Shown here: positions 24,367 through 56,663 of the stretch, in pieces
Layout of the letters: each line of letters begins with the position of its first letter
Numbering within the stretch: the stretch's first letter is position 1
Assembly: GCF_003426815.1 (NCBI RefSeq)
Contig: NZ_QKYK01000013.1
Coordinates: 1-64,000, forward strand
DNA length: 64,000 bases
Direction of reading: 5' to 3'
Source: Desertimonas flava
GTDB taxonomy: Bacteria; Actinomycetota; Acidimicrobiia; Acidimicrobiales; Ilumatobacteraceae
Translations under genes and position numbers: made by a program
Notes under the pieces: model-generated
Database searches by the model: none
What the model saw: only the letters and a program-made list of their open reading frames with translations
What the model was told of the DNA's origin: nothing

Positions 24367-25017
24367 ATGGCGGCCGTGTCGCCAGCAGGAGTGTCCCGTG
24401 ACGTCGTCGCCGCGTTCGACGTCGACGGCACCCTGACGACCCACGACTGCGTCGTGCCCTTTCTCCGGCGCGTGGCGGGCACGGCGCGGCTCGCCGCCGG
24501 CCTGGCCGCGCGGCCGCACCGGCTTGTCCCTGCCCTCGTTCGCCGCGACCGGGACGCGCTGAAGGCGTTGTCCGCCGACGTGGTGTTCCGGGGCCGTTCG
24601 GTCGCCGCGGTCGCCGCCGAGGCGACGGAGTTCGCCCAGGCCGTCCATCGCGACCGGCTGCGCCCCGACACCGTCGCCACGCTGCGGCGGCACCAGGCCG
24701 ACGGGCACACGGTGGTGCTCGTGTCGGCGTCGTTCGCCGTCTATCTCCATCCTCTGGCCCGGCTCCTCGGGGTGGACCACGTCGTGGCCACCGAGCTCGA
24801 GACCGACCAATCGGGTGCGCGGTACACCGGCGCGCTCGAGGGACCCAACTGCCGGGCTCACGAGAAGGTGGTGCGCCTGCATCGCTGGCTCGACGAGCGC
24901 GACTCGTCCCGGGCCCGAGTGGAGTTGTGGGCGTACGGGGATTCGTCGGGGGACCGGGAACTGCTCGCCGATGCCGATCACGGGGTGTGGGTCGCCGGAG
25001 CGGCCGCCGCGGCGTGA
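24367..25017 (+). CDS. HAD-IB family phosphatase (SerB-like), candidate DPPR 5'-phosphatase
   Basis: A 216-residue HAD hydrolase with nucleophile motif VVAAFDVDGTLTTHDC, motif II VLVSASFAVYL, and motif IV AYGDSSGDRELLADAD. It is the first gene of a five-gene coupled operon and overlaps the UbiA gene (GTGA). The pathway from phosphoribosyl pyrophosphate to decaprenyl-phosphoryl-arabinose needs a phosphatase to remove the 5' phosphate of decaprenylphosphoryl-5-phosphoribose; this gene's position suggests it does that. That role is inference. ATG 24367 is chosen because the longer frame adds an Ala/Gly-rich unconserved start. Confidence 0.88.
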   Translation: MAAVSPAGVSRDVVAAFDVDGTLTTHDCVVPFLRRVAGTARLAAGLAARPHRLVPALVRRDRDALKALSADVVFRGRSVAAVAAEATEFAQAVHRDRLRPDTVATLRRHQADGHTVVLVSASFAVYLHPLARLLGVDHVVATELETDQSGARYTGALEGPNCRAHEKVVRLHRWLDERDSSRARVELWAYGDSSGDRELLADADHGVWVAGAAAAA

Positions 25018-25937
25018 TCGTCGACGACGGTCTGGACGGGGCCGCAACCGTGAGTCGTCCGCCGCTCGCTCGCGCCCTGTGGCAGACGGCGAGGCCGCTG
25101 CAGTGGCTGAAGAACCTCCTCGTCTTCGCCGCGCCCGGGGCGGCCGGCGTGCTCGACGATCCGTCGGACATGGGCAAGGCGGTGATCACCTTCGTCGCCT
25201 GCTGCTTGGCCTCGAGCGGCCTCTACTTCTGGAACGACGCGTTGGACGTGGAGTCCGACCGGCGGCATCCGGCGAAGCGCCACCGGCCGATTCCAGCCGG
25301 GCAGCTCGGGATCACGATGGCGATGGTCATCGGCACCGGACTCATCGTGGCCGGCCTCGCCCTCGCCGGAGCGACCGGCCGCTGGCAGACCGTGGCGATC
25401 GTCGGGGTCTACGTGGTCAGCACGATGGCGTACACGCTCTCGCTCAAGCACGTCGCGGTCGTCGACCTCGTCGTGGTCGCGTCGGGATTCGTCCTGCGCG
25501 CCGCGGCAGGCGCCGTGGCCGTGGACGTCGGCATGTCGAGCTGGTTCGTCCTCTGCACCGTCTTCGGCTCGTTGTTCATCGTGACCGGCAAGCGCTACGC
25601 CGAGCTCCGCGAGATCGGCGACGGCGCGGCGGAGATCCGCCGCACGCTCGGCTCGTACACGCCCGGCTACCTCCGCATCGTGTTGACCGTGGCGTGTGGC
25701 GGCGCCCTGCTCACGTACTGCCAGTGGGCGTTCGAGCGCAAGGAGATGGTGGGGAGCGACCGGCCGTTCTACGAGCTGTCGATCGTGCCCATGCTCACCG
25801 CGCTGCTGCGGTACGCGCTGGTGCTGGAGAACGGCAAGGGAGCCGCTCCCGAGGAGGTCTTCGCCAACGATCGTGTCCTCCAGCTCCTCGGGCTCTGCTG
25901 GGTGGTCCTGTTCGGACTGGCCGTCTACGTCCGATGA
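25014..25937 (+). CDS. ubiA: Decaprenyl-phosphate phosphoribosyltransferase (UbiA superfamily)
   Basis: Attaches 5-phosphoribose from PRPP to decaprenyl phosphate, the committed step to the lipid-linked arabinose donor. The 307-residue membrane protein has the first Asp-rich site YFWNDALDVESDRRHPAKRHRPIPAG, the second region TLSLKHVAVVDLVVVASGFVLRAAAGA, and the FGSLFIVTGKRYAELREIGD...LGSYTPGYLRIV block that distinguishes DPPR synthases such as mycobacterial Rv3806c from quinone prenyltransferases. The start GTG at 25014 overlaps the upstream stop, and the stop overlaps the next ATG (ATGA), so expression is translationally coupled. Confidence 0.92.
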   Translation: MIVDDGLDGAATVSRPPLARALWQTARPLQWLKNLLVFAAPGAAGVLDDPSDMGKAVITFVACCLASSGLYFWNDALDVESDRRHPAKRHRPIPAGQLGITMAMVIGTGLIVAGLALAGATGRWQTVAIVGVYVVSTMAYTLSLKHVAVVDLVVVASGFVLRAAAGAVAVDVGMSSWFVLCTVFGSLFIVTGKRYAELREIGDGAAEIRRTLGSYTPGYLRIVLTVACGGALLTYCQWAFERKEMVGSDRPFYELSIVPMLTALLRYALVLENGKGAAPEEVFANDRVLQLLGLCWVVLFGLAVYVR

Positions 25938-26644
25938 TCGAGGGCTGGCTCACCGACGAACAGGCAGTGATGCTCGCCGCCGCGGCCGAGCGCTGCCCGC
26001 CCGACGGCGAGATCGTCGAGATCGGCAGCTTCCGCGGGAAGTCGACCATCGTCCTGGCGACGCACGCCCCCGAGGGCGTCGCCGTGGTCGCCATCGACCC
26101 GCACGCCGGCAACGACCGCGGCCCTCAGGAGATCGACGGGTACGCGGCCGAGGCGGCGTCAGACCGTGCCGCGTTCGAGCGCAACCTCGTCGACGCCGGG
26201 GTCCGCCACAGGGTCAGGCACGTCGCCCGGTTCTCTGCCGATGCGCACTCCGACGTCCACGGTGAGATCGACGTGCTCTTCATCGACGGAGCCCACCGCT
26301 ACGGCCCGGCCCGGGCGGACATCCGCGACTGGGGCGGGCGGGTCACCGACGGGGGCACGATGTTGATCCACGACTCGTTCTCGTCGATCGGCGTCACGCT
26401 GGCGATCGGGCGGGAGCTGGTCGTCGGGGGGCGGTTCCGCTACGTGGGGCGGTCGCGATCGCTCGCCGAGTACCGTGCCGATCTCTCCGGCGCCGGTACC
26501 CGAGCCCGGTTGGCCAACGCCGGCCGGCAGCTCCTGCAGGGCGGCTGGTTCGTGCGCAACGTGGCACTCAAGGTGTTCCTGACGGCGGGCGGACGCCCGC
26601 TCCTGCGCCTGCTGCGCCTCCCGATCCCGGACTGGCCGTACTGA
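25934..26644 (+). CDS. Class I SAM-dependent methyltransferase inside the DprE operon
   Basis: A 236-residue enzyme of the Methyltransf_24 type: VEIGSFRGKSTIVLA (SAM motif I), VVAIDPHAG (motif II), IDVLFIDGAHRYGPARADI and GGTMLIHDSFSSIGVTLAI. The C-terminus (RNVALKVFLTAGGRPLLRLLRLPIPDWPY) is hydrophobic and basic and could touch the membrane. It overlaps UbiA by ATGA and DprE1 by TGATG, so it belongs to the same pathway in expression. A methyl acceptor is not known: a sugar, a polyprenyl carrier or a glycan end are possible. Mycobacterial dpr loci lack such a gene as far as I know. Confidence 0.85.
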   Translation: MIEGWLTDEQAVMLAAAAERCPPDGEIVEIGSFRGKSTIVLATHAPEGVAVVAIDPHAGNDRGPQEIDGYAAEAASDRAAFERNLVDAGVRHRVRHVARFSADAHSDVHGEIDVLFIDGAHRYGPARADIRDWGGRVTDGGTMLIHDSFSSIGVTLAIGRELVVGGRFRYVGRSRSLAEYRADLSGAGTRARLANAGRQLLQGGWFVRNVALKVFLTAGGRPLLRLLRLPIPDWPY

Positions 26645-28023
26645 TGCCGGCGGGCACCAGCGGACGCCGGCTACTCACGGGCTGGGGCGGCACGGCCGCA
26701 TCGGCGACCGAGGTCGTACGCGCCAGCGGCGGCGACCTCGCGGGACTGCTCGGCGTCGTCCGTTCGGCGTCTCGCCGCGGCGTCATCGCCCGTGGGCTCG
26801 GCCGCAGCTACGGCGACAGCGCCCAGAACGGCGGCGGACTGGCCGTCGAGTTGGAGCAGGGGCCCGAGACGATCAACATCGATGCTCGGACGGCGACCGC
26901 CACGGTCGGAGCCGGCGTGAGCATCGACGACCTGCTGCGCGCCAGCGTCCCCGCCGGCCTGTTCGTGCCGGTCACGCCGGGCACCCGGTTCGTGACCGTC
27001 GGCGGCGCGATCGCCAGCGACATCCACGGCAAGAACCACCACGTCGACGGCACGTTCGGGCGTCACGTCCGCTCACTGCGCCTGCTGCTCGCCGACGGCG
27101 ACGTCGTCGAACTCAGCCCCGACCAGCGGCCGGACCTGTTCTGGGCGACGGTCGGGGGGATGGGCCTCACCGGCATCATCCTCGAAGCGACCGTCGCCAT
27201 GCTTCCGATCGAGACCAGTCGGTGCACGGTGGACACCGAGCGGGTCGCCGACCTCGACAGCCTGCTCGCCCACATGGACGCCGACGACGACGCATTCCGC
27301 TATTCGGTGGCGTGGATCGATCCGATGGCGAGTGGCCGCTCGCTCGGCCGCAGCATCCTCACCCGCGGCGATCACGCGCGCGTCGACGAGCTCCCGCCCA
27401 GGCAGGTCGCCGGCGCCCTCGAGTACCGGCCGGGACACCTTGCCACGATCCCACCCGTGGTGCCCGGGCCCGGCGTGATGAACCACGCGACGATCAGCGC
27501 GTTCAACGAGATGTGGTACCGCAAGGCGCCGCGGCGGCGCGTCGGTCAGATCATGTCGATCCCGCAGTTCTTCCACCCGCTCGACGCGGTCGGGCACTGG
27601 AACCGGCTCTACGGCCGGCGTGGCTTCGTGCAGTACCAGTTCGTCGTGCCGTTCGGTGAGGAGACGGCCCTGCGCAACGTGATCGAACGGCTCGCCGACG
27701 CCCGCGCGCCGAGCTTCCTCGCCGTGCTCAAGCGCTTCGGTGCTGCCAACCCGGCGCCGCTCAGCTTCCCCCGACCGGGCTGGACGCTGGCCGTCGACGT
27801 CCCGGCGGCCACGTCCGGACTCGCCGAACTGCTCACGGAGCTCGACCGGCTCGTCCTCGATGCCGGCGGGCGGCACTACCTCGCCAAGGACAGCGCCACG
27901 ACGCCGGAGGCCATTCGCCGCGGCTACCCGCGGCTCGGCGAGTGGCGCACCATCCGCGATGCGGCCGACCCCATCGGCCGCTGGGTCAGCGACCAGAGCC
28001 GCCGCCTGCGGCTCACCGCGTGA
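26644..28023 (+). CDS. dprE1: Decaprenylphosphoryl-beta-D-ribose 2'-oxidase
   Basis: FAD-dependent oxidase that turns decaprenylphosphoryl-ribose into its 2'-keto form. The 459-residue protein has the FAD domain (ARGLGRSYGDSAQNGGG; FVTVGGAIASDIHGKNHHVDGTFG with His128) and the substrate domain with Lys415 in HYLAKDS, matching mycobacterial His132 and Lys418. At the position of the mycobacterial Cys387 that benzothiazinones attack, this protein has Ala383 (PGWTLAVDVPA against PGWNICVDFPI). Start and upstream stop overlap by one base (TGATG). It partners with DprE2 downstream, 32 bp away. Confidence 0.95.
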   Translation: MPAGTSGRRLLTGWGGTAASATEVVRASGGDLAGLLGVVRSASRRGVIARGLGRSYGDSAQNGGGLAVELEQGPETINIDARTATATVGAGVSIDDLLRASVPAGLFVPVTPGTRFVTVGGAIASDIHGKNHHVDGTFGRHVRSLRLLLADGDVVELSPDQRPDLFWATVGGMGLTGIILEATVAMLPIETSRCTVDTERVADLDSLLAHMDADDDAFRYSVAWIDPMASGRSLGRSILTRGDHARVDELPPRQVAGALEYRPGHLATIPPVVPGPGVMNHATISAFNEMWYRKAPRRRVGQIMSIPQFFHPLDAVGHWNRLYGRRGFVQYQFVVPFGEETALRNVIERLADARAPSFLAVLKRFGAANPAPLSFPRPGWTLAVDVPAATSGLAELLTELDRLVLDAGGRHYLAKDSATTPEAIRRGYPRLGEWRTIRDAADPIGRWVSDQSRRLRLTA

Positions 28024-28055
28024 GAGCCCACGGCCCGCAAAGGAGAATGACGTCC

Positions 28056-28814
28056 ATGGAGAACGCCCTCGGTGAAGTGCAGACGATCGTGCTCTTCGGT
28101 GGCACGAGCGAGATCGGCCGGGCCATCGTCGACCGCCTGCTCACCCCGGCGACGACGACGGTGGTGCTCGCCGTTCGTGATCCCGAGTCCGTGTCGATCG
28201 CCGGGACCTCCCTCGAGCGTCCCGGTCTCACCGTCGACGTCGTGGCGTTCGACGCCGCCGACACGGACACTCACCAGGGCCTCGTCGACGATCTGGTCGC
28301 CCGTCACGGCGACCTCGACGTGGTGATCGAGGCGTTCGGACAGCTCGGCGATCCCCACGTGCTGGCCGCCGACGCGGCGGCCGCGGCCGCCCTGGTGCAC
28401 GTCAACTTCACGGGGTCCGTCAGCGTGGCCACGGCCGTCGCCGCCCAGTTCCGGCGCCAGGGTCACGGTCGACTGGTGGTGCTCTCCAGCGTGGCGGGGG
28501 AGCGGGTGCGCAAGGCCAACTACGTGTACGGGTCGTCGAAGGCCGGTCTCGACGGGTTCGCCCAGGGACTCGGCGATTCCCTGGCGGGCACGGGCGCGTC
28601 CGTCCTCGTCGTGCGTCCCGGCTTCGTGACGTCGAAGATGACCGCCGGGCTGAAGCCGGCACCGCTGTCGACGACTCCCGAGGCGGTGGCCGACGCCACC
28701 GTGAAGGCCTTGCGGTCGGGGAAGCGAACGGTCTGGGCACCGGCGGCCCTGCGCGTGGTGTTCAGCGTCTTCCGCCACCTGCCCGGGTCCGTCTGGCGCC
28801 GCCTGAAGGTCTGA
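28056..28814 (+). CDS. dprE2: Decaprenylphosphoryl-2-keto-ribose reductase
   Basis: A 252-residue short-chain dehydrogenase that completes the C2 epimerisation begun by DprE1, giving decaprenyl-phosphoryl-D-arabinose. NAD(P)-binding motif FGGTSEIGRAIVDRLL, active-site SSVAGERVRKANYVYGSSKAGLDGFAQGL (Ser, Tyr-x-x-x-Lys), and the typical DprE2 tail (VWAPAALRVVFSVFRHLPGSVWRRLKV), which is hydrophobic and basic. ATG 28056 lies 10 nt after AAAGGAG; ATG 28047 is too close to it. It is the last gene of the operon, ending in a large inverted-repeat structure. Confidence 0.93.
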   Translation: MENALGEVQTIVLFGGTSEIGRAIVDRLLTPATTTVVLAVRDPESVSIAGTSLERPGLTVDVVAFDAADTDTHQGLVDDLVARHGDLDVVIEAFGQLGDPHVLAADAAAAAALVHVNFTGSVSVATAVAAQFRRQGHGRLVVLSSVAGERVRKANYVYGSSKAGLDGFAQGLGDSLAGTGASVLVVRPGFVTSKMTAGLKPAPLSTTPEAVADATVKALRSGKRTVWAPAALRVVFSVFRHLPGSVWRRLKV

Positions 28815-28877
28815 GCGCGACCGACGAGCCGCCGACTGACGGTTGGGACCAGGCACCAACCGTCAGGTCGCGCTCAG
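28811..28877. terminator. Nested bidirectional terminator-like palindrome shared by two convergent stops
   Basis: Inner perfect 11-bp arms CTGACGGTTGG (28836-28846) and CCAACCGTCAG (28856-28866) enclose 9 nt. An outer 12-bp perfect inverted repeat, CTGAGCGCGACC (28811-28822) and GGTCGCGCTCAG (28866-28877), includes the TGA stop codons of both converging genes, so dprE2 and the opposite membrane-protein gene both end TGAGCGCGACC. Confidence 0.7.
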
Positions 28878-30646
28878 CAGCGGTTGTAGAGCCGGACGAG
28901 GCCGCCCTGGTACTCGCCGAAGAGGCAGAAGTCGTCCTTGATCACCTGGTTCGGTTCCGGTGAGCCGAAGTCCATCGACGAGTTGGGCTCGTCCCAGCCG
29001 GCCCAGAACGCCGTGAGGATCGCCCAGTCTGCGGACCGGAGGTCGTCGGCGAGCCGCGACCCCGCCTTGTTCGCCAGGCCCGGATCCATCTCGATGTAGT
29101 ACGTCGCCGGCTCGAGCTCCGGGAACATCCAGTAGAACATCGAGTCGCTGTACCACGTGCGGCTGAGGTCCATCGGTCCGACGAACAGCAGCTCGCCCGG
29201 CGTGGACCACTGGTCGAGGACGTCGATCACCTCCTGCGAGGCGAAGGCCGCGTCGACGGCGCCGAAGTAGAAGCTGCGCGGCCCGCGCTTGACCTCGATC
29301 GCCTCGGGCACCCGGCCGAGGCTCACCCGTGACTGGAAGAGGTAGTAGCGGAACGTGAACAGGGACGTCAGCGTGAACGCGAGCACCACGGCCGCAGCCA
29401 TGCCGACCGCGACGCCGAGGCGTCGTGGGCGACGAGGGTGCCAGCGGCGCACCAGATCGGCCACGAACACCACGAAGAACGGCCACGACACGCACGTCAC
29501 CCACGTGAGATGGGTGGAATCGGGGCGTTGCCACGCCTGCGGCAGGATGCCGACCGACACGATGGCGGTGACGAGCAGCGCCGTCGAGCGGCCGTCCCGC
29601 TCGCCGCGGCGGCGCTGCCAGATGGCGAAGCCCAGCATGGCGAAGGCGATGAGGAACATCGCGAAGAACCACAGGAACAGGGCGTTCGACGCCGCGACGT
29701 GGGGGAACGGCCACCACGGCGGCACGGTCTCGGCGATCCGCTGCAGCGCACCGTCGAGCCGGCCCCACGACGGCGGCCGCGGGAGCTCACGCCCGGCCCG
29801 GAGGTGGAACACGGGGTCGAGGAACATGCCCCGCCAGATCGCCGCCGGCCCGGCCATGGCGAGATGGACCCACATCGGCACCATGCCGACCACCGCTCCA
29901 GCGAGCACCGTCAACCGAGATGCCCGAGCCTCTGCGGCGCGGCGGTGGCGCCACAGCACCCAACCCAGCACGGCGCCGACGGCGATGACGAGGTCGGGGC
30001 GATAGGTGAGGGCGAGCGCCCCGAGGAACCCGGCGACCGCCCAGGCCGCCCGCTGGCTGCGGCCCGAGACGTAGGTCGAGCGGACGGCGAACACGCCGCA
30101 CCACAGCGTCAGGGCGAGCCCGCCGTTCCACGCCATGGCCGACAGCCCGATCGGCGTGAGGATGTAGAAGATGGCGAGCGTGCCGACGGCGGTCGCTGCC
30201 GCCCGCCCCCACGGGCGGGCCAGCGTGAACAGGGCGAGGATGATCCCGACGTGCTGGATCAGTCCGAACGTTCGCTCGGCGGCGAGCGTGTCGCCGAACA
30301 GCCGGTACCAGAACATCAGCACGTGCAGGGCGCCCGGCCCGTAGAGGTGTAGGAAGTCGACGTTGGGCACGTCGCCCTTCCAGATGCGCTCGGGGAAGTA
30401 GAGCATGAAGCCCTCTTCCATCGTGCCGCCGGTGAAGTGGTAGAGGCCCTTCAGCGGCAGGGCCACGATGGCGGCGATGAGCACCAGGCCGAGCCAGGTG
30501 CCGACGGCGCCGCGGTCGCGGCGGCGCAACCCGCCCGACCCGCCGAGCACGAAGGCGGTGCCGTCGTCCGATGCCGTTCGTGGCGAGGGGGACGGCGTGG
30601 CGACCGGCGCGGCGAGTGGCTCCAACGCCTGGTCGTGATCGGTCAC
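28874..30646 (-). CDS. Multi-pass membrane protein, probable GT-C glycosyltransferase
   Basis: A 590-residue protein with about ten to eleven hydrophobic helices (first: GTWLGLVLIAAIVALPLKGLYHF). The first loop (GGTMEEGFMLYFPERIWKGDVPNVDFLHLYGPGALHVL) has the acidic residues expected of polyprenyl-phosphate-sugar-dependent GT-C enzymes, and the last 150 residues are extracytoplasmic with an (LFVGPMDLSRTWYSDSMFYWMFPEL) segment. No sequence family is certain. It converges with dprE2 and diverges from another such protein, which suggests envelope glycan work. The start is GTG 30646; a TAGTTT box ends 9 nt before it, indicating a leaderless mRNA. Confidence 0.7.
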   Translation of the reverse strand: MTDHDQALEPLAAPVATPSPSPRTASDDGTAFVLGGSGGLRRRDRGAVGTWLGLVLIAAIVALPLKGLYHFTGGTMEEGFMLYFPERIWKGDVPNVDFLHLYGPGALHVLMFWYRLFGDTLAAERTFGLIQHVGIILALFTLARPWGRAAATAVGTLAIFYILTPIGLSAMAWNGGLALTLWCGVFAVRSTYVSGRSQRAAWAVAGFLGALALTYRPDLVIAVGAVLGWVLWRHRRAAEARASRLTVLAGAVVGMVPMWVHLAMAGPAAIWRGMFLDPVFHLRAGRELPRPPSWGRLDGALQRIAETVPPWWPFPHVAASNALFLWFFAMFLIAFAMLGFAIWQRRRGERDGRSTALLVTAIVSVGILPQAWQRPDSTHLTWVTCVSWPFFVVFVADLVRRWHPRRPRRLGVAVGMAAAVVLAFTLTSLFTFRYYLFQSRVSLGRVPEAIEVKRGPRSFYFGAVDAAFASQEVIDVLDQWSTPGELLFVGPMDLSRTWYSDSMFYWMFPELEPATYYIEMDPGLANKAGSRLADDLRSADWAILTAFWAGWDEPNSSMDFGSPEPNQVIKDDFCLFGEYQGGLVRLYNRC

Positions 30647-30717: not shown

Positions 30718-32544
30718 GTGACCGGCGCCCCTCGATCGCTGCCGCGCCCCAGCGCGCTCGCCGGAGCGGTCGCCGTCGTTGCCCTCCCGCTCGTCATCGC
30801 CGCCATCGCCCTCCGCGCCGATCACTGGTATCCCGTGCTCGATCTGGCGATGACGGAGTTCCGGGTGCGCGACGTGTTCAGCTCACACACGCCGATCATC
30901 GGCCTCCCCGGCCGTATCGGCGAGTATCCGAACCAGGGGAGTCACCCCGGTCCCCTCAGCTTCTACCTGCTCGCGCCGACCTACCGGCTGCTCGGCTCGT
31001 CGTCGTGGGCGCTCCAGGTGTCGGCGGTGGTCGTGCACGTGGCGGCCGTCGTCACCGCCTTGTGGATCGGCCGCCGGCGCGGAGGACTCGCCGGTGTGGC
31101 GGCCGTGGCCGCGCTCCTCGCGGTCGTCATCCGCGGGTACGGCCAGCTGCTCCTCACGCAGCCGTGGAATCCCTACCTCCCGCTGTTGGCCTGGATCGTC
31201 GTGCTGCTCGCCGTGTGGTCGGTGCTCGCCGGTGACTCCCTCATGCTCGTGCCCCTCGTCGTGGCGGCGTCCCTGTGCGCGCAGACCCACGTGCCCTACC
31301 TCGTCTCGTGCGCGGTGCTGACGATCGGTGCGCTGGTGTACGCGGCGTCGCGACCCGGCACCAGCCGCCGTCATGCCGCGATCGCCGCCGGTGTGGGGGT
31401 CCTCCTGTGGCTGCCACCGATGCTCGATCAGCTGGTGCACGACCCGGGAAACGTGCGCAAGCTGCTCGACCACTTCTCGACGCCGAGCGAGCCGGTGATC
31501 GGCTTCGGCGACGGTGTCCGCCTGGCCCTGCGCCACCTCGACGTGTGGGCCGGGTTCGTCGGCGATCTCGGCGGCAGCGGACAGTTCGTGTCACCGTCGT
31601 CACCGTGGCGTGGGGTGGCGACGTTGGTGGTGTGGGCGGTGTCCGTCGCCGTCGCGTGGCGGATCGGCTCGCGGACGCTGAAGTGCCTGCACGTCACGGT
31701 CGCCGCGGCACTGGTCCTGGGGTTGTTCTCGATGGTCCGGATCTTCGGCCTCGCGTGGTACTACCTGACGCTGTGGGCGTGGGGGACCACCACGATTGCC
31801 GTCGCGGCGATCGTGTGGACCGGGTTGAGCCTCGTTCGCAATCTCCGGCCTCGCCATGCGGGATCGGCTCGGCCTGCGGTCGCCGGGGCGGCCGCCGCGC
31901 TGGCTGTGCTGGTCTCGGTCTCGTCGGCGGTCGCCTTCGCCGACGCCGAGGTGCCTGAGGAGCGTCTGAGCGAGGCGGTGGCGGCGCTGTCGGGACCCAC
32001 GTACGATGCCGTCGTCGCCGGGCTGGGGGTCGCCGACGGGACCGGCGTGCCGTACCAGGTGCGATGGAGCGACGTCGCCGACATCGGCAGCCCGGGTTTC
32101 GGGTTGCTCAACGAGCTCGAGCGCCGCGGGCTCGACGTGGCCGGCGACGAGTTCTTCGACGTCCCACTCACCGCCTACCGATGGCGGGACCGCTCGGCCG
32201 ACATCGCCCAGATCCATCTGGCGACCGGGGCCTGGATCGACACGTGGGCGGCAGTCCCTGGCGCCGTGCTCGTGGCGTCCTACGAGCCGCGGGACCGGCA
32301 GGAGCAGGTGCTGTACGCCGAGACGAGGCAGCGCGTCATCGATCGGATGCGGGCTGAGGGACGGTCGCCGGAGCTGATCGGCAATGTCGACTGCAACCTG
32401 TTCCTGACGTCGCTGAGCACGGCGCTCTCGTCGGCCGACCTCGCCGACATCGAGCTCCTCCTCGAGTTGGGCCAGCCGATGGCCGTGTTCATCGCGCCGG
32501 GCGACGCCGATCCGCCCCCCGGTGGCCCCTGCGGCTTCGTCTGA
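30718..32544 (+). CDS. Multi-pass membrane protein, probable GT-C family glycosyltransferase
   Basis: A 608-residue membrane protein with about ten helices. The first helix is followed by LDLAMTEFRVRDVFSSHTPIIGLPGRIGEYPNQGSHPGPLSFYLLAPTYRLLG, an acidic first loop and aromatic re-entry typical of GT-C folds; a further motif is LTQPWNPYLPLL. The C-terminal roughly 200 residues are soluble and extracytoplasmic, with VDCNLFLTSL and GGPCGFV cysteines. Substrate unknown. A TAGCCT box ends 9 nt before GTG 30718 (leaderless). Confidence 0.7.
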   Translation: MTGAPRSLPRPSALAGAVAVVALPLVIAAIALRADHWYPVLDLAMTEFRVRDVFSSHTPIIGLPGRIGEYPNQGSHPGPLSFYLLAPTYRLLGSSSWALQVSAVVVHVAAVVTALWIGRRRGGLAGVAAVAALLAVVIRGYGQLLLTQPWNPYLPLLAWIVVLLAVWSVLAGDSLMLVPLVVAASLCAQTHVPYLVSCAVLTIGALVYAASRPGTSRRHAAIAAGVGVLLWLPPMLDQLVHDPGNVRKLLDHFSTPSEPVIGFGDGVRLALRHLDVWAGFVGDLGGSGQFVSPSSPWRGVATLVVWAVSVAVAWRIGSRTLKCLHVTVAAALVLGLFSMVRIFGLAWYYLTLWAWGTTTIAVAAIVWTGLSLVRNLRPRHAGSARPAVAGAAAALAVLVSVSSAVAFADAEVPEERLSEAVAALSGPTYDAVVAGLGVADGTGVPYQVRWSDVADIGSPGFGLLNELERRGLDVAGDEFFDVPLTAYRWRDRSADIAQIHLATGAWIDTWAAVPGAVLVASYEPRDRQEQVLYAETRQRVIDRMRAEGRSPELIGNVDCNLFLTSLSTALSSADLADIELLLELGQPMAVFIAPGDADPPPGGPCGFV

Positions 32545-33367: not shown

Positions 33368-34936
33368 TCAGGGAGCCGGCACCGCCGCGCGCTGCCGGTA
33401 GTCCTCGCGCAGCTCACGCTTGAGTGGCTTGAGCGCTCCCGACAACGGGAGCGCTTCCGTTCGCAGCTCGATGGACTTGGGCACCTTGTAGCCGGCGATC
33501 CGCTCCCGTGCGTGGGCGATGATGTCGTCGGCGGTGATGTCCGACCCGGGCTCGAGGACGACGATCGCGTGGACCTGCTCACCGAGCACGTCGTGCGGGA
33601 CACCGATCACCGCGACCTGGGCGACTCCGGGGAGCGTGGAGATCGCGTTCTCCACCTCGATGGAGTACACGTTCTCGCCGCCGGACACGATCATGTCCTT
33701 CACCCGGTCGACGAGGTACACGTACCCCTCGTCGTCCACGTGGCCCTCGTCACCGGTGCGGTACCACCCGTCCGTCATCACGGCGGCCGTCTCGTCGGGG
33801 CGACGCCAGTACTCGCGCATGAAGTTGCCGCCACGCGCCCACACCTCTCCGTTGTCGCCGCTATCGACCGGGCGGCCCGACTCGTCGCGCACGCTGATCT
33901 CGACGCCGAGCACAGGGCGGCCGGCGGAGCGCAGCACGCGTCCCCGGCGTCGGTGATCGTCCGGGGTGAGGAACGTCAGCACCGACGAGCACTCCGTCAT
34001 CCCGTAGCCCTGCCAGAGATCGACCTCGGGGAGGAGCTCGAAGATCCGGTCGAGGAGAGCCGCAGGCATCGGCGACGCCCCGTAGACGAGGTCGCGCAAC
34101 GACGCCAACCGCGACGGGAGGAAGTCGGGGTGGTTGAGGACCATGGCGATCATGGTCGGCACCATCATCGTCCAGTCGACACTGTGACGTTCGATCACCT
34201 CCATGACCTGCGAGGGCTCGAACAGTGGCACGAAGACCGAGGTGCCGCCGATCGCCGGGATGCCGATCACTCCGCCCATCGACGCCGCGTGGAACATGGG
34301 CGTCTGGTGCAGGTACACCCGTCGGTCGCTCATCTCGACGGCGATCCCGATGTGGTACAGGTTGAGGATCTCGGCCCGCTGTTCCAGCACAGCGCCCCGG
34401 GCGCGGCCGGTGGTTCCACCCGTGTACATCAGGACGGCCGGGTCGGTCTCGTCCGGCTCGGCGGGGGCCACGGGCCGGGCGGCGTCGATGAGGTCCTCGT
34501 AGCGCACATCGTGCGGTACGTCGCCGTCACCGATCAGCACCACCTTCCGCAGGGAGAGCTCGTCACGGACCGGCGCGATGTTCCGGGCGAAGTGCTCGGC
34601 GAAGACGGAATCGACGAACACGACCGTGGCGCCGGAATCCAACAGGATGTCCTGCAACTCCCGGCCGGCCAGGCGAAGGTTGAGCGGGTTGATCAGGCCG
34701 GCGCCCAGCATGCCCGCGTGGTACAGCTCGAGGAACTCGTGGCCGTTGCAGGCCATCACGGCGAAGCGGTCGCCGCGCTCGAGGCCGAGCTCGTTGCGTA
34801 TGGCGTCGGCGAGTCGGAGCACTCGATCGGAGTGCTGACCGAACGTGGCGCGGTAGGCGCCGTCGTGGAATCCCAGCTTGTCGGCCCACCGCTCCATCGC
34901 CGGCCGGAAGAGGCGGGGGAAGATCAGTTCTTTCAT
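33368..34936 (-). CDS. Fatty-acyl-CoA ligase (AMP-binding)
   Basis: A 522-residue acyl-adenylating enzyme, the last gene of the lipid operon. P-loop AVLMYTGGTTGRARGAVL, adenine-site YGMTECSSV, hinge GWYRTGDEGHVDDEGYVYLVDRVKDMIVSGGENVYSIEVE, and catalytic lysine in SGALKPLKRELR. It lies 41 bp after the RND transporter gene. Its acyl-CoA products are the natural substrates of the two WS/DGAT acyltransferases upstream. ATG 34936 (MKELIFPRLFRPAMERWADK) gives a standard start. Confidence 0.92.
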   Translation of the reverse strand: MKELIFPRLFRPAMERWADKLGFHDGAYRATFGQHSDRVLRLADAIRNELGLERGDRFAVMACNGHEFLELYHAGMLGAGLINPLNLRLAGRELQDILLDSGATVVFVDSVFAEHFARNIAPVRDELSLRKVVLIGDGDVPHDVRYEDLIDAARPVAPAEPDETDPAVLMYTGGTTGRARGAVLEQRAEILNLYHIGIAVEMSDRRVYLHQTPMFHAASMGGVIGIPAIGGTSVFVPLFEPSQVMEVIERHSVDWTMMVPTMIAMVLNHPDFLPSRLASLRDLVYGASPMPAALLDRIFELLPEVDLWQGYGMTECSSVLTFLTPDDHRRRGRVLRSAGRPVLGVEISVRDESGRPVDSGDNGEVWARGGNFMREYWRRPDETAAVMTDGWYRTGDEGHVDDEGYVYLVDRVKDMIVSGGENVYSIEVENAISTLPGVAQVAVIGVPHDVLGEQVHAIVVLEPGSDITADDIIAHARERIAGYKVPKSIELRTEALPLSGALKPLKRELREDYRQRAAVPAP

Positions 34937-34977
34937 CGGGTGTGTCCTCGTGGGTGATGGTGGTGGTCGTGGTGGTG

Positions 34978-37920: not shown

Positions 37921-39353
37921 CGGGATCGCCCCGAGGTCGCTTTCCGGGCCCGTCGCCTCGGGGCGGCCAGGTCGGCGTGCTCGCGTAGCGTCGTCATCTG
38001 CGCTTCGATGCGCTCGGCCATGAAGTGCACGTCGGGCGCGGCGTCGTAGTCGCCGGTGATCCCGAACGTGAGATGGCCGTTGTACGACAGCACGGCGACA
38101 CCGATGCGGACGCCCGAGCTGAGCGGCACGAAGGGCAGGTACTCGAGCATTCCTCGACCGAGCGCGTACAGCGGGTACTGCGGTCCGGCCACGTTGGTGG
38201 TCACCGTGTTGATGTTGTGCTGCGGCATCCGTCGCAACGTCGCGGTGAGTGCTCGCACGGCGAGCGCTTGCAGCACGGGCGGTGAGAACGAGGCGATCGC
38301 CGTCGCCGCCGCCCCGGCCTCGACCTGATGAGCGGCCTTGAGACGGGCGAGTTCGGCGTGGACCGCGGTGAGGCGCTCGCGCGGATCGGAGACGGCGATG
38401 GGCAGCTCGGCGATCATCAGCGACACCTGGTTGTTCCGCGACGCGTCGCCGGGCGCACGTGTGGAGACGGGTACGAGCGTGCGTAGCGTCGTGTCGTCCA
38501 CCGCCTCACCGCGCGTGGACAGCACGTCACGGAAGGCGCCGGCGATCACGGCCAACACCACATCGTTCACGGATCCTCCGAGTGCGGCACGGATCGCCTT
38601 GGCGTCGTCGAGCGTGCAGCGCGCCGCCGCGTACCGGCGATGCGGTCCGATCGACCCCTCGATCGACACCGGCGGGGCCGGCCGGGCGTAGTTGGCCAGT
38701 GAACGCGCGCCCGCCACGACGTCGGCAACCTGGCGAAGTGCAGCCCGAGGTCGCCGCACATTGCCGGCGAATGCGCGGAGTTGACGGATCGGCAGCCCGG
38801 CGAGCTCCCACGCCGCGCCCAGTGCCAGCTCGGCGTCACTCGGCTCGCGCGCCGGTGACCACGAGGCGGGCGTCGGGACGGCGGCGTCGCGGGCCGGATC
38901 GAGCAGGACGGCCATCATGTCCGTGCCCGCCACGCCGTCGACCATGCAGTGGTGCACCTTGGAGATGAGGGCCCACCGGTCGTCGGACAGGCCGTCGACG
39001 ACCCACGCCTCCCACAGCGGCCGGTCGCGGTCGAGCTCCTGGGACATCAACCGCCCCATGAGGTTCTCCAGTTCGGTCTCGCCGCCGGGTGGCGGAAGGG
39101 CCGAGTGACGAACGTGGTAGTCGAGCTGGAAGTTCGCGTCGTCGACCCAGACGGGATGCGTGAGGCCGCCTGGCACCCTGCGGAGGCGCTGCCGGTAGCG
39201 CGGCAGAAGATCGAGCTTGCCGGCGATGAGGCCGACGACCTCGGCGAACAACGGCGGAGGCCCGGCGAAGATGGCGCACGAGCCGATGTGCATGTGGGAC
39301 ACGCCGTCCTCGGCGTTGACGAACAGAGCGTCGAGCGGACCGAGTCGTTCCAT
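37917..39353 (-). CDS. Wax ester synthase/diacylglycerol acyltransferase (second copy)
   Basis: Esterifies acyl-CoA to fatty alcohols or diacylglycerol. The 478-residue protein has the catalytic HHxxxDG motif as KVHHCMVDGVAG, N-terminal MERLGPLDALFVNAEDGVSHMHIGS, and NVAGPQYPLYALG near the C-terminus, which is the family's second conserved block. It starts 3 bp after the other WS/DGAT gene's stop and overlaps the transporter start. Confidence 0.93.
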   Translation of the reverse strand: MERLGPLDALFVNAEDGVSHMHIGSCAIFAGPPPLFAEVVGLIAGKLDLLPRYRQRLRRVPGGLTHPVWVDDANFQLDYHVRHSALPPPGGETELENLMGRLMSQELDRDRPLWEAWVVDGLSDDRWALISKVHHCMVDGVAGTDMMAVLLDPARDAAVPTPASWSPAREPSDAELALGAAWELAGLPIRQLRAFAGNVRRPRAALRQVADVVAGARSLANYARPAPPVSIEGSIGPHRRYAAARCTLDDAKAIRAALGGSVNDVVLAVIAGAFRDVLSTRGEAVDDTTLRTLVPVSTRAPGDASRNNQVSLMIAELPIAVSDPRERLTAVHAELARLKAAHQVEAGAAATAIASFSPPVLQALAVRALTATLRRMPQHNINTVTTNVAGPQYPLYALGRGMLEYLPFVPLSSGVRIGVAVLSYNGHLTFGITGDYDAAPDVHFMAERIEAQMTTLREHADLAAPRRRARKATSGRSR

Positions 39354-39356
39354 GGC

Positions 39357-40823: not shown

Positions 40824-40967
40824 GTGACTCCCTCCGAGGAGTGGCCTGCATCGACCGTACGCAGGCACCGCCTGGAGCCGGTAGAGGCGAACGTCCTGAG
40901 CCGCCCTGCCGAGCCGACCGTTGCGGTTTGGTGCCGAACGCCAAGCGCAACGGGGCTGGCCGCCCCC

Positions 40968-51526: not shown

Positions 51527-52447
51527 GTGCGAGTGGACTCCGAGGGCCTTCGGACCGGGCGTGCGTACCTGGACGACGTGACGACGCTCTTGCGGCTGGT
51601 CCGCCGCGCCCACCCGACGAAGGGCCTGTTCGAGGCCGCCGACCTGCAGTGGTGGTGGCGAGCGCCGCGTCCGACCGACGAGATTCCCCAACTCTTCTGG
51701 TTCGACGAGGACGGACGTCCGACGGCCGCCGTGATCGTCACGGCGTGGCGCGACCGGACCGCCCTCGATCCGATTCTCCTGCCCGACGCGACCGCCGAGT
51801 GGACCGATCAGGTCGTCGAGCGTGGTCTCGCTCACGCCGGGGCTTCCGGATTCGGGACCGTCCAGCTGGAGGCCGACCGATCCGACGAGACGCTGATCGC
51901 GGCGTTCGTCGAGCGCGGCTTCTCGATCGACGAGAACGAGCAGATGGTCGAGACCTGGATGGACGCCGACTCCCGGCCGGCGGTCAGCCCACTTGCGGAC
52001 GGGTACCGGCTGTTCACCCGCCTCGAGCGGGCCGGCTGCCCGCACCACATGGTGAGTAGGAACGGACCGGACACCGAGCGGCGCCTGAACGAGACGTCGC
52101 TGTATCGCCCGGACCTCGACCTGGTGGTGGTCGACCGGAACGACGACGATGCGGCGTACGCGTTGTTCTGGATGGACCCGGCGACAGCGACCGGCCTCGT
52201 CGAACCGATGCGGACCGAGGATGCCCATCAGCGGCAGGGCCTCGCCCGCCACGTGCTCATCCAAGGCCTCGAACGTCTGGCGGCGGCCGGGGCCAAGCGC
52301 ATCAAGATCTGCTTCGAAGCGGCCAACCCGGCGTCCAAGCACCTCTATCTCAGCGTGGGGTTCCGACCGGTCAAGGAGACCGTGACGCTGTCGGGCCCGA
52401 CGCTGGATCCGGCGTCCTCGCCGGGCGGTTGCGGGCCAGGGCGCTGA
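51527..52447 (+). CDS. Tandem GNAT-type acetyltransferase
   Basis: A 306-residue protein with a degenerate N-terminal GNAT half (VERGLAHAGASGFGTVQLEADRSDETLIAAFVERGFSID) and a C-terminal GNAT domain with the acetyl-CoA pyrophosphate loop VEPMRTEDAHQRQGLARHVLIQGLERLAAAGAKRIKICFEAANPASKHLYLSVGFRP. Substrate unknown. A TACGGT box ends 7 nt before GTG 51527. Its last 77 bases overlap the 3' end of the convergent AftD-like gene. Confidence 0.8.
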   Translation: MRVDSEGLRTGRAYLDDVTTLLRLVRRAHPTKGLFEAADLQWWWRAPRPTDEIPQLFWFDEDGRPTAAVIVTAWRDRTALDPILLPDATAEWTDQVVERGLAHAGASGFGTVQLEADRSDETLIAAFVERGFSIDENEQMVETWMDADSRPAVSPLADGYRLFTRLERAGCPHHMVSRNGPDTERRLNETSLYRPDLDLVVVDRNDDDAAYALFWMDPATATGLVEPMRTEDAHQRQGLARHVLIQGLERLAAAGAKRIKICFEAANPASKHLYLSVGFRPVKETVTLSGPTLDPASSPGGCGPGR

Positions 52448-55400
52448 CCCCGAGCGAGACGGCGAGGAACAGCCCGAGCCAGTGGAGGTGCTCGAAGTGG
52501 CCCGGGAAGCTGGGCGTCGGCTGCGGATGCTCGCGGCGCACGTACGTGATCACGTCGTGGGCGATCTTGACGAGTCCGGCGATGGTCACGTAGGCCGCGA
52601 CACGGACACGCCGTGTCGCCACGATGACGGCGCCGCCGGCGAGGCCCCACCACGCGTAACCCGGCTGCACGAACAGCGCGGCGGCTGCCGTGTAGACCGC
52701 CGCCGCGACGAGGCTCCGGCCGAGGCCGTCGGAGGGGCCGAGGAACCGGAAGCGGGCGGGTTCGACAGGGGGTGAGGGCGGGAGCCGTCGCTCGCGGATG
52801 ACGAGGACGACCGACGCGATGGCGGCCAGCCCGCTGATCGTCAGGGCGATGTCGAGTCGGCGTTGCACGGTCCAGGCGATCTCGACGGTGACGGGTCCGG
52901 CATCGTCGCCGCGTTCCTCCAGCGACGGGATCCACCAGCCGTTGAATCCACCGGCGATCAGCCGTGGCTCGCCGAGCGACTCGCCGTCGATGGTCGCCTT
53001 CCATCCGCGGTGGTATCCCTCGCCCTGGATCAGCCAGCAGCCGTCGTCGCAGCCGTCCACCTCGACCGTGCGGCCCGTCCGGGACTCGTCGACCACGGTC
53101 GCTGTGGCCGCGCCCGCCCCGGGGCCTGCCGAGATGCCTGGAGCCCTGACGCCGCCGAGCACGATGCGGTCGACGGTGAGCCCGATGCGGCGGGAGTCCT
53201 GACCGGTGACGAGATGCTCACCGGCTGCCAGCATCACCGGCGACGCCTCGCACACCGTGGCGGTCAACGCCGCGCCGTGCATCGCGTCGGCAACCTCACC
53301 CTCCACCCGCACGGGCACGGGCGTGCCGTCCACGGCCACGAGATCGTCACGGCACTCGGTCTCGAAGTGCTCGGGCACGGTCGATGGGGCGACGTTCTCC
53401 ACCTCCGACACCGCGGCGGGCATCAACACGGTGTCGGCATATCGAGCGTCGCGGGTGGTCTGCTCGACGAGCCCGACGATCCGCATCGTCGTCGTCCCGG
53501 AGGAGAAGCCCTCCGGCACAGTGAGCTCGGACCAGCCGTCGCTGGCGGGCGTGGGGACGTCGACCTCGACCGACTGGGCGCCCTGGCCGAGGACGACGCG
53601 GGTGATGCGCGAGTAGTTCCCGACGGGCTGGCGGATCCGCAGCGGCCGGCCGGGGTCGACGAGATCGACGGTGAGCGTCGATCCGTAGACCTGTCCGAAG
53701 GGCGTGATCCACGCCGTGGATTCGTCGCCGTCGGCCGCCGCCCAGCCGCCGGCCACCGGTGCCCCGGTGAGACGGCTCGACGCCGTCGGGCCGTCGATAC
53801 CCAGCAGGGAGGCGAGCACCACGTCGCTCGCCCGCCGATCGAGTCGCACGTCGCCGGCGACCTCCACCTCCTGCGCGAAGGGGACGTCGATGCGTCGCAC
53901 GATGCGCCACTCCGGATCGGTGCGCAGGCGATCGGTGGGACGCACGCGTTCGCGGGTGAGGACGTACACGACGGGCACGTCCAACTCACCGTCACGCAGC
54001 GCCGTCGTCAGGTCGGTGGGAACACTGACCACCTCTGGGCTGGGACCGAGCCCGGTGTCGATCTCGGCGAAGCCGACGCCGGCCCGGTCCGGTCCGACGG
54101 CGTGACGGCGGCCGGTCATCGATCCGAGGGAGATGCGGATGGTCGTCGGCCCGTCGGTGGCCGGGAACTCCACCGGTTGACCGGCGACGAGCGAACGGTC
54201 GTCGAGCGTCACGGAGAACCGTTCGCCGCCGTTGACGCTGATGCGCACGTCCCGCAGGTGGCGGACGTCGGCGAGGCCGTTGGGCTGGAGCAGCGTGACG
54301 TGGTCGACCCCGGCGTCGGTCTGCACCTCGATGAACTGGTTGGCCGGATCGAGCACCGTCCACGCCGTGTTGGGATCGCCGTCGATGGCCATCGCCGGAC
54401 GTGACTCGGGCTCGTACACGAACCGGGCGCCGTAGGCGGTGGCGATGGCACGAGTGGGGCCGTCGGACCTCGCCGTCGTCGACTCGGAGGGACCGTCGTC
54501 GGCGAAGACGTCGAGCCGGGCGTCGCCCGAGTCGGGCCACACCACGGCCGAGCCGGTGCCGGTCTCGGTGTAGCCGGTCGTCTCCTGGGAGCCGCGCCAG
54601 TTGCGAGCCCGGATGCGATTGGAGTCGGTGATGATCACGAAGCCCGCGTGGGCCGCAGCTTCGAGCAGCTCGTCGGTGTCGAGCGACGCGCTGTAGAGGA
54701 TCGCCTCGGACCCGTCGATGAGCCCGGCCGCCGCGGCGTCGACGAGACCGTCGCCGCTTCCCGACACGACGACGATGTCGCTGCTGGCGCGAATGATCGG
54801 GACGGGGTCGATCACGGAGACCAGCTCGACCGGCGCGATGGCGTCACCGATCACCGGTTCCGACAGCGACTGTTCGTCGACGACCGGCATCGCGGGGACG
54901 TTGACGACGGGTTCGCCGTACGGCTCGGGCCCGCCGAGATCGTTGGCGTCGTCGCTCGCCGCGACGGCGAAGAAGTCGGACGTCAGTTCCGGGCGGGGAG
55001 TGCGGAAGCGTTCGAACGCGACGTCGCCGGTGAGCCAGATCACGTCGGCACCGAGGAGCCGGGCGATCGGCGCGATGGCGGCGGCCTCCGGCCGTCCCTG
55101 CTGGAAGCGGTCGTCGAGCGCGTACAACAGGTCCATCGTCGCGGCCGAGCCGAGCGGCAACAGGTCGCGGGTGACGAGGGGGCGGTCGGTGAGTGCGGGC
55201 AGTGGGGGATCGACGGTGTAGCCCCATCGATACGCCCCGAACTCGGCGCCAGGGAGCTGGAGCACCCGATAGCCGCCGGGCAGCTCGTCGAGAGCTGCAG
55301 CCGCGTCGTACCAGGACGCCGGCGGGTACTCGGCGCGCTCCAACGCCGGGTCGACGAGCCGGTGCCCGACGAGGACCGGGAGGTTGCCGAGCGCGGCGAC

Positions 55401-56663
55401 GATCAACACGGCAGCGGCACCGAGGCGTAGCGACGGGCGTCGCCAGCCGATGGCGTCGACGAGGGCGCCGGCGCCGAGAGCGAGACCGATCGTCATCACG
55501 GGCAGGGCGCGTGTGCTCGAGCGCAGGGCGAGCGCCAGTCCCGACTCGCCGTCACCCCGGAACCAGTCGGCGAGCGGCGAGGGGTCGGTGAAGCGGTGGA
55601 CGCCGACGGCCAGCACGAGGCCGGTGAACGTGAGCACGACGGCATAGCGGCGGGCGGCGAAGCGGGTGACGGCGAGGCCGGCGACGGAGACGATGACCAG
55701 GGCGAATCCGAGATAGAGCGGTGCCGTGTGGGTCATGTAGTCGCGTCCGGCCGTGGTGGTGGGTGCGAACGCCGAGCTGACGTACGTCAGCCAGTAGCCG
55801 AGCGAGCGCCAGACCTCGACCGACGTGGCGGTGAGGCTGACGTCCTGGAGCGACTCGGAGAAGGCCAGGAGGTCGGCTCCCTCCTTGCTCTGGATGCTCT
55901 GCATCATCAGCCACCAGGCCGACGTGAGGATGCTGAGGCCGCCGATCTTCGCGGCGGTCACCGCCGCGGTTCGCGGAGCGATGCGGCGCTCGGCGGCCGA
56001 CACGATCAGCCACAGGACCGGCGCCGGGGCGATCATCGTCACGGCCGTTCCGTTGACCGAGCCGACCGAGGCCACCACGAGGGCGCACAGAGCGGCGTCG
56101 CGCCACTTCGATCGCGTCGCGGCGCCGACGGTGAGGCCGATGATCCAGCCGAGGCCGGCCCAGGGGAGCAGCATCGACGACGTCCGGGAGATGTACGGCA
56201 CGAGGTAGGGCGACAGCTGGTAGAGCAGACCGGCGGCCACCGCGGCGACGAGCGAGAGGCCGAGCCGCCGAGCCGCCCAGGCGACGCCCGCGCCGGCGGC
56301 GAACATGATCGTGCCGATCCAGAGCCGATGTGCGACCCAGTCGGGCAGCCCGACAGCCTGGGCGACCGTGTACCACGGGCCGGTCGGCCAGAGGTAGGCG
56401 ATGATCTGGTGGGGGACCCAGCCGGCGAACTGGCGGGCATCGAAGCTCCAGATCGAGTCCGACAGCAGCCGCCCGGGGTCGAGGTACAGGTAGAGCTTGG
56501 TGTCGGACGGCATGCGGCCGGGCGACGACATCAGCGACGGCACGTAGGCGAGCAGGGCCATCACCGCGGCGCCGATCAGCCAGAGCGGGCGGCGCGCGGT
56601 GAGGCGATGGGCGGTCGACCGGGTCTGGTCCGGCCTCGCGGCGACGGTGATCGCCGCGCTCAT
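52371..56663 (-). CDS. aftD: AftD-like alpha-(1->3)-arabinofuranosyltransferase
   Basis: A 1430-residue GT-C transferase, almost the length of mycobacterial AftD (about 1400). N-terminal first loop PGRMPSDTKLYLYLDPGRLLSDSIWSFDARQFAGWVPHQIIAYLWPTGPWYTVAQAVGLPDWVAHRLWIG matches the DUF3367/AftD pattern, including the acidic residues for decaprenyl-phosphate-arabinose. About ten helices follow; then a long extracytoplasmic part with two discoidin-like carbohydrate-binding regions (about 745-830, AMAIDGDPNTAWTVLDP..., and about 930-1080, AADGDESTAWITP...), and C-terminal helices ending FEHLHWLGLFLAVSLGVSALAR. Expected to add alpha-1,3-arabinofuranose to a surface glycan. It overlaps the upstream epimerase gene by ATGA. 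Confidence 0.85.
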   Translation of the reverse strand: MSAAITVAARPDQTRSTAHRLTARRPLWLIGAAVMALLAYVPSLMSSPGRMPSDTKLYLYLDPGRLLSDSIWSFDARQFAGWVPHQIIAYLWPTGPWYTVAQAVGLPDWVAHRLWIGTIMFAAGAGVAWAARRLGLSLVAAVAAGLLYQLSPYLVPYISRTSSMLLPWAGLGWIIGLTVGAATRSKWRDAALCALVVASVGSVNGTAVTMIAPAPVLWLIVSAAERRIAPRTAAVTAAKIGGLSILTSAWWLMMQSIQSKEGADLLAFSESLQDVSLTATSVEVWRSLGYWLTYVSSAFAPTTTAGRDYMTHTAPLYLGFALVIVSVAGLAVTRFAARRYAVVLTFTGLVLAVGVHRFTDPSPLADWFRGDGESGLALALRSSTRALPVMTIGLALGAGALVDAIGWRRPSLRLGAAAVLIVAALGNLPVLVGHRLVDPALERAEYPPASWYDAAAALDELPGGYRVLQLPGAEFGAYRWGYTVDPPLPALTDRPLVTRDLLPLGSAATMDLLYALDDRFQQGRPEAAAIAPIARLLGADVIWLTGDVAFERFRTPRPELTSDFFAVAASDDANDLGGPEPYGEPVVNVPAMPVVDEQSLSEPVIGDAIAPVELVSVIDPVPIIRASSDIVVVSGSGDGLVDAAAAGLIDGSEAILYSASLDTDELLEAAAHAGFVIITDSNRIRARNWRGSQETTGYTETGTGSAVVWPDSGDARLDVFADDGPSESTTARSDGPTRAIATAYGARFVYEPESRPAMAIDGDPNTAWTVLDPANQFIEVQTDAGVDHVTLLQPNGLADVRHLRDVRISVNGGERFSVTLDDRSLVAGQPVEFPATDGPTTIRISLGSMTGRRHAVGPDRAGVGFAEIDTGLGPSPEVVSVPTDLTTALRDGELDVPVVYVLTRERVRPTDRLRTDPEWRIVRRIDVPFAQEVEVAGDVRLDRRASDVVLASLLGIDGPTASSRLTGAPVAGGWAAADGDESTAWITPFGQVYGSTLTVDLVDPGRPLRIRQPVGNYSRITRVVLGQGAQSVEVDVPTPASDGWSELTVPEGFSSGTTTMRIVGLVEQTTRDARYADTVLMPAAVSEVENVAPSTVPEHFETECRDDLVAVDGTPVPVRVEGEVADAMHGAALTATVCEASPVMLAAGEHLVTGQDSRRIGLTVDRIVLGGVRAPGISAGPGAGAATATVVDESRTGRTVEVDGCDDGCWLIQGEGYHRGWKATIDGESLGEPRLIAGGFNGWWIPSLEERGDDAGPVTVEIAWTVQRRLDIALTISGLAAIASVVLVIRERRLPPSPPVEPARFRFLGPSDGLGRSLVAAAVYTAAAALFVQPGYAWWGLAGGAVIVATRRVRVAAYVTIAGLVKIAHDVITYVRREHPQPTPSFPGHFEHLHWLGLFLAVSLGVSALARNRPARTPDPASGPTASRSP

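Follow-up and report, generated by a model that had tools for sequence, protein, structure and literature searches.

A compact operon in the genome of Desertimonas flava (Ilumatobacteraceae, Acidimicrobiia) probably makes polyprenyl-phosphoryl-beta-D-arabinofuranose, with a phosphatase of the HAD-IB type acting as the 5'-phosphatase of the pathway, and the arabinose donor so formed would be used on an envelope glycan of a non-classical kind. The operon occupies positions 24367-28814 of a 64,000-nucleotide stretch (contig NZ_QKYK01000013.1, positions 1 to 64,000 of the forward strand), referred to here as the window, and consists of five genes, all on the + strand. The first encodes the HAD-IB phosphatase, the proposed polyprenyl-phosphoryl-5-phosphoribose 5'-phosphatase (24367..25017, ATG at 24367, stop at 25015-25017; PF12710, 130 bits). 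It is followed by the genes of decaprenylphosphoryl-5-phosphoribose (DPPR) synthase, a decaprenyl-phosphate phosphoribosyltransferase of the UbiA superfamily (DPPRS; 25014..25937, GTG at 25014, stop at 25935-25937), of an S-adenosylmethionine (SAM) methyltransferase of the Methyltransf_24 family (25934..26644, ATG at 25934, stop at 26642-26644; PF13578, 72.4 bits), of DprE1, the polyprenylphosphoryl-ribose oxidase (26644..28023, ATG at 26644, stop at 28021-28023), and of DprE2, the 2-keto-pentose reductase (28047..28814, stop at 28812-28814). The first four genes overlap, through GTGA at the HAD/DPPRS junction (25014-25017), ATGA between DPPRS and the methyltransferase (25934-25937) and TGATG between the methyltransferase and DprE1 (26642-26646). 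DprE2 starts 23-32 bases after DprE1, as its open frame begins with the ATG at 28047 and an alternative start, the ATG at 28056, is better spaced behind AAGGAG at 28040-28045. Direct reading of the sequence thus bears out the five-gene layout, coordinates and overlaps of the original prediction.

The product of the operon is very probably the same lipid-linked arabinose donor as in mycobacteria, a call that the original prediction had made from the letters of the DNA and that curated models and solved homologues now support firmly. DPPRS passes the equivalog model NF008978 (342 bits against a cut-off of 207) and is the sole match to it among the three UbiA-family genes of the genome; on the narrower same-enzyme model NF008976 it stays below the cut-off (269 bits against 474). 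It aligns with its solved homologue Rv3806c (PDB 8j8j) at an E value of 1.7e-61. Twelve residues that bind phosphoribosyl pyrophosphate (PRPP) in Rv3806c are named in the part of PMC10994848 available to us, and in the 8j8j alignment nine of them are identical in the window's DPPRS (R22, K28, Y70, N73, D77, K87, R90, Y138 and K143), the three differing positions being Q135 to T, Y157 to F and K208 to R. Eight of the nine identical site residues are invariant over 22 aligned rows and K145 is conserved in at least 90% of them. DprE1 passes equivalog NF053785 (603.1 bits against 500; PDB 4aut, E 1.3e-127) and DprE2 passes equivalog NF053786 (305.6 bits against 250; PDB 21gq_C, E 3e-63). Judging by these curated families and by the conserved residues, DprE1 and DprE2 would together bring about the inversion at C2 that yields the arabinose donor. 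As a separate observation on DprE1, residue 383 of the window's protein, which aligns with the benzothiazinone-binding cysteine of the Mycobacterium smegmatis enzyme (Cys394, according to the part of PMC3206020 available to us), is alanine; over the 93 DprE1 sequences of the loci examined this position holds alanine in 65, threonine in 23, serine in three and cysteine in two.

The HAD protein scores 140 bits on the subfamily model TIGR01490 (cut-off 98.3) and has all four HAD motifs. Its catalytic residues are D18, D20, S120, K167, D192 and D196; in 23 aligned orthologues all are invariant except D192, which is conserved in at least 90%. The predicted structure (pLDDT 94.0) has a SerB-like fold, and in a fold search with this model SerB-like HADs and an uncharacterised Bordetella protein rank first, a result that does not indicate the substrate. 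Two specific identities were rejected: histidinol phosphatase, with 77 bits against a curated cut-off of 280, and phosphoserine phosphatase, with a score far under the curated cut-off. We infer that the HAD protein acts as the phosphatase between DPPRS and DprE1, where it would hydrolyse the 5'-phosphate by the usual aspartyl-phosphate route.

That the HAD gene supplies this step had been proposed from the operon alone, and a neighbourhood check for the HAD-UbiA-DprE1-DprE2 arrangement was run over two partly overlapping samples: 61 genomes (the window's own and 60 relatives), with 40 relatives' loci around DprE1 genes, and 80 named DPPRS loci, the best 80 of at least 504 confirmed, some of which share contigs with the relatives' set. 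Counts over these samples ignore kinship. The arrangement recurs in other genomes, indicating that the gene order is not due to chance. The HAD model separates its targets cleanly, with 36 places in 35 of the 61 genomes at 174 bits or more and the next best at 102. DPPRS is present in 40 genomes (39 above the cut-off, plus G013, whose gene is split into two pieces lying at the ends of contigs), and 34 of these carry a HAD orthologue as against one of the 21 others (Fisher test, 7e-10, uncorrected for kinship). DprE1 likewise reaches at least 245 bits in 40 genomes, 33 of them with HAD, and only two of the 21 genomes lacking DprE1 have it, G027 and G023; the latter is 63% complete and holds methyltransferase, DPPRS and HAD together on a short contig. 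At the relatives' 40 DprE1 loci DPPRS was found in 36 and HAD in 25, where it lies directly upstream of DPPRS in 22, directly downstream of DprE2 in two and directly downstream of DPPRS in one. A position directly upstream of DPPRS or downstream of DprE2 is thus shared by 24 of the 25 HAD-bearing relatives' loci and by 16 of the 17 HAD-bearing named loci. A link kept through several differing gene orders counts in favour of a role for HAD in the pathway.

A second line of evidence comes from the phosphatase of the mycobacterial type, Rv3807c, a member of the PAP2 family. The 80 named loci hold HAD in 17, an Rv3807c-type PAP2 in 28, neither in 35 and both in none, an overlap of zero that would arise by chance with a probability of 2e-4 if kinship is ignored. 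To find the PAP2 genes, five Mycobacteriales-type sequences were combined into a profile, since PAP2 motif patterns missed PAP2 genes in loci known to hold them; these five sequences, like the 23 HAD rows, necessarily match the models made from them. The Desertimonas genome has eight PAP2 matches, none on the window's contig and hence none beside DPPRS. Scores on the Rv3807c model do not exceed 61 bits in the relatives, whereas genes at DPPRS loci elsewhere reach 148-323 bits; of the relatives' matches listed, not one lies within 60 kb of DPPRS. In addition, a biochemical precedent is given by Citrobacter ORF15, whose HAD domain, fused to a DPPRS homologue, dephosphorylates lipid-linked ribose phosphate, and whose D18A variant yields farnesyl-P-ribose-5-phosphate instead of farnesyl-P-ribose, as reported in the part of PMC11127046 available to us.

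Four further observations concern DPPRS or HAD loci. One relative, G034, has two sets of DPPRS, DprE1 and DprE2 (L060 and L070), with a linked HAD beside one set only. The HAD orthologue adjoins aroA, the gene of EPSP synthase, in L099, L183, L184 and L186, and in L099 it stands between aroA and DPPRS. On a Marivivens plasmid (L211) a DUF212 gene, a divergent PAP2, directly follows DPPRS and may represent a further type of phosphatase; this plasmid is one of five examined among 70 plasmid records that match DPPRS, and of these five the Agrobacterium one has no HAD. Finally, L097, L119, L162, L148 and L127 are Acidimicrobiia-like DPPRS loci filed under Bifidobacterium breve, Bacillus or Thermoanaerobacterales titles, which are probably wrong.

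Once made, the donor would be flipped across the membrane by a flippase and added by enzymes of the GT-C type to an envelope glycan, one that we suppose to be other than classical arabinogalactan. No flippase gene was seen in the operon, and the genome-wide search for one, which covered GtrA only, gave no match at E 0.001, although it did detect GtrA in Corynebacterium glutamicum, used as a control. A candidate for the transfer lies in the same window, absent from the original prediction: an AftD-like arabinofuranosyltransferase of 1430 aa (52371..56663, - strand; PF11847, 255 bits against a cut-off of 26), which aligns over its N-terminal 561 residues with mycobacterial AftD (PDB 6wbx, E 2.3e-32) and is the sole PF11847 match in the genome. 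Its match to CBM_AftD scores 25.1 bits, under the cut-off of 27. Enzymes like AftD have a known part in arabinan synthesis. Across 37 genomes of the window's family AftD and DprE1 occur together in 26, DprE1 only in one, AftD only in one and neither in nine; the corresponding numbers in 24 genomes outside the family are nine, four, five and six, where the association is weak (P 0.41).

The markers of a classical arabinogalactan were not found. Emb (PF04602), GlfT2 (PF17994) and UDP-galactopyranose mutase (PF03275) had no match at E 0.001 in a search of the whole genome, a draft of 6.22 Mb in 73 contigs that is 96.6% complete, and each family was found in the positive control, Corynebacterium glutamicum. 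At this completeness one marker gene could be missed, all three hardly, and the arabinose donor is therefore probably meant for something else; some arabinosylated glycan is likely, and a classical arabinogalactan is not. In the part of PMC12263773 available to us the whole-cell sugars given for one Acidimicrobiia strain are rhamnose, ribose, mannose and galactose, with no arabinose, and no sugar data were found in the accessible part of the Ilumatobacter coccineum genome paper (PMC3910706).

Two further membrane proteins may belong to the machinery that uses the donor. GTCa, a protein of GT-C fold according to its predicted structure and a candidate user of lipid-linked pentose (28874..30646, - strand), is the convergent neighbour of the operon in 11 of the 40 relatives' loci and in six of the 80 named loci. 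Compared with GT-C enzymes its model, with a pLDDT of only 72.3, gives Z scores of 19.8 for Pmt4, 14.5 for EmbB, 13.5 for AftA and 13.2 each for AftD and AftB; since helical folds reach middling Z scores by themselves, as the comparison tool warns, the fold alone does not show the donor. GTCb, a multi-pass PTPS_related protein (30718..32544, + strand; PF10131, 31.5 bits against 26.4) that we regard as a candidate GT-C enzyme, stands beside GTCa in several relatives' loci. Adjoining these glycosyltransferase candidates, at 33368-40868 on the - strand, is a row of genes for an acyl-CoA ligase, an MMPL transporter and two wax ester synthase/diacylglycerol acyltransferases.

Among the alternatives, it is possible, if short of probable, that the product mainly decorates a target other than a wall polymer, such as glycoproteins or an exopolysaccharide. 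The missing galactan markers are compatible with such a target, and the fold of GTCa is nearest to protein O-mannosyltransferases, though helical GT-C folds score alike. A precedent exists in Pseudomonas, where arabinosylation of pilin has been proposed (PMC11127046, in the part available to us). Against it, AftD-like enzymes are associated with arabinan synthesis, and AftD keeps company with DprE1 in the window's family, if weakly outside it.

The assignment of the phosphatase step meets a number of contrary observations. A copy of HAD lies away from the operon in seven of the 35 HAD-bearing genomes: beside aroA in G006, G027 and G034 (where a linked copy exists as well), next to an SDR or Lpd gene in G041, G054 and G059 (in G054 with a DprE2-like gene about 1 kb off) and beside an ABC exporter in G057; moreover, G027 retains HAD and neither DPPRS nor DprE1 was found in it. 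Six relatives with DPPRS (G038, G046, G048, G051, G055 and G056) lack a HAD orthologue and showed no PAP2 match in the vicinity either, and 35 of the 80 named loci showed neither phosphatase in the stretch examined. At nine HAD-less relatives' loci with intact surroundings the profile detected no PAP2 and inspection by eye no clear phosphatase candidate. The ORF15 D18A variant retained some activity (PMC11127046, in the part available to us), which indicates that other phosphatases can perform the step. Lastly, on the window's HAD model the Lactococcus plasmid HAD scores 56 bits and the fused HAD of Cereibacter 14, where paralogues score 55-99. As these plasmid HADs are no closer to the window's HAD than paralogues are, they support its role by context only.

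One could accordingly regard the HAD protein as a general small-molecule phosphatase, perhaps from the metabolism of histidine or aromatic compounds, that came to be linked with DPPRS by an accident of gene order, with another enzyme such as a distant PAP2 dephosphorylating DPPR. The copies beside aroA in three relatives, the position between aroA and DPPRS in L099, the score on the histidinol-phosphatase model (though far under its cut-off), the eight PAP2 matches of the genome and the six DPPRS relatives without HAD would all suit this explanation, and yet we consider it rather improbable. The linkage persists across several gene orders, HAD occurs almost only where the genome also has DPPRS, and PAP2 matches are missing from the window's contig and, in the relatives, are weak on the Rv3807c model and, where listed, remote from DPPRS. 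Furthermore, in a tree of 53 HAD orthologues and nine paralogues the orthologues form one clade (support 100/100) in which the detached copies, those at aroA included, are scattered, a pattern that fits an operon-linked enzyme that has sometimes moved. That HAD supplies the phosphatase step therefore stands as a proposal well supported by linkage, co-occurrence, exclusion with the Rv3807c-type gene and a biochemical precedent in another organism; in some genomes HAD also lies apart from these genes.

A role in making classical arabinogalactan, such as the pathway has in mycobacteria, is very improbable for this operon: DPPRS, DprE1, DprE2 and an AftD-like protein are all present and yet Emb, GlfT2 and UDP-galactopyranose mutase are unmatched in a search whose control found each. 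A link to classical arabinogalactan is thus not supported.

The methyltransferase is a feature of the window's family, lying between DPPRS and DprE1 in 18 of the 40 relatives' loci, all of that family, and it is found in five of the 80 named loci; the 18 aligned proteins are 58-67% identical to the window's. SAM enzymes work in the cytoplasm, and the substrate could therefore be the lipid-linked pentose before its export. The profile matches PDB 6g7d (E 4.5e-16), which we take to be the mycobacterial methylmannose 1-O-methyltransferase MeT1. MeT1 is described in PMC9883506, where the PDB entry is not named in the part available to us. A bolder scheme, which we think doubtful, is that the enzyme methylates the lipid-linked pentose and that methylated polyprenyl-phosphoryl-pentofuranose is exported, with which GT-C enzymes would cap, and so end or tailor, arabinan chains on a galactan-free envelope polymer of Ilumatobacter relatives. 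If true, these bacteria would have a lipid-linked arabinose donor that carries a methyl group and, with it, a novel means of controlling arabinan length.

The pathway to decaprenyl-phosphoryl-D-arabinose (DPA) is a major mycobacterial drug target, and one mostly associated with arabinogalactan. The lineage described here apparently has the whole pathway within a single operon, and no match to the galactan genes was obtained; its members are abundant bacteria of freshwater, sea and sludge. The presence of HAD or PAP2 at DPPRS loci, never both, offers a clean case of one enzyme type replacing another, and thanks to this exclusion the question of which enzyme is the DPPR phosphatase can be put to a direct test. 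Among the titles and abstract openings that we surveyed, few of them from subscription papers, none concerned DPA in Acidimicrobiia, and none a DPA operon that includes HAD as a gene of its own.

Compared with the mycobacterial pathway (Rv3806c, Rv3807c, DprE1 and DprE2), the window has orthologous DPPRS, DprE1 and DprE2 and, as in mycobacteria, an AftD-like enzyme, and differs in having HAD-IB in place of the PAP2 protein Rv3807c, in uniting all steps in one operon with a methyltransferase inside, and in belonging to a genome without a match to Emb, GlfT2, UDP-galactopyranose mutase or GtrA, the last being presumably the family of Rv3789. In Citrobacter youngae ORF15 HAD and DPPRS act in sequence on polyprenyl-linked ribose phosphate, as we infer for the window; there, however, the HAD domain is fused, DprE1 and DprE2 are lacking and a MATE flippase is present, whereas in the window HAD is separate and accompanied by both. 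The fused domain of ORF15 (PMC11127046, in the part available to us) makes the idea of a HAD phosphatase less new than first thought. Alphaproteobacterial plasmids of Cereibacter and Salipiger carry a HAD-UbiA fusion, GtrA, an FAD oxidoreductase and an SDR protein in one operon, into which one further gene intervenes in Cereibacter, unlike Salipiger; their DprE1-like and DprE2-like genes recall the window, from which they differ in the fused and sequence-distant HAD, in the presence of GtrA and in having no methyltransferase between DPPRS and the oxidoreductase. The Lactococcus plasmid has a separate HAD-IB gene adjoining DPPRS, as in the window, only downstream of it, with GtrA in the cluster, neighbours of the exopolysaccharide type and, in the stretch inspected, neither DprE1 nor DprE2 among the annotated genes. 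A solution of this kind is thus known already, and the novelty lies in the unfused HAD that accompanies DprE1 and DprE2, in the methyltransferase placed inside the operon and in the galactan genes that found no match.

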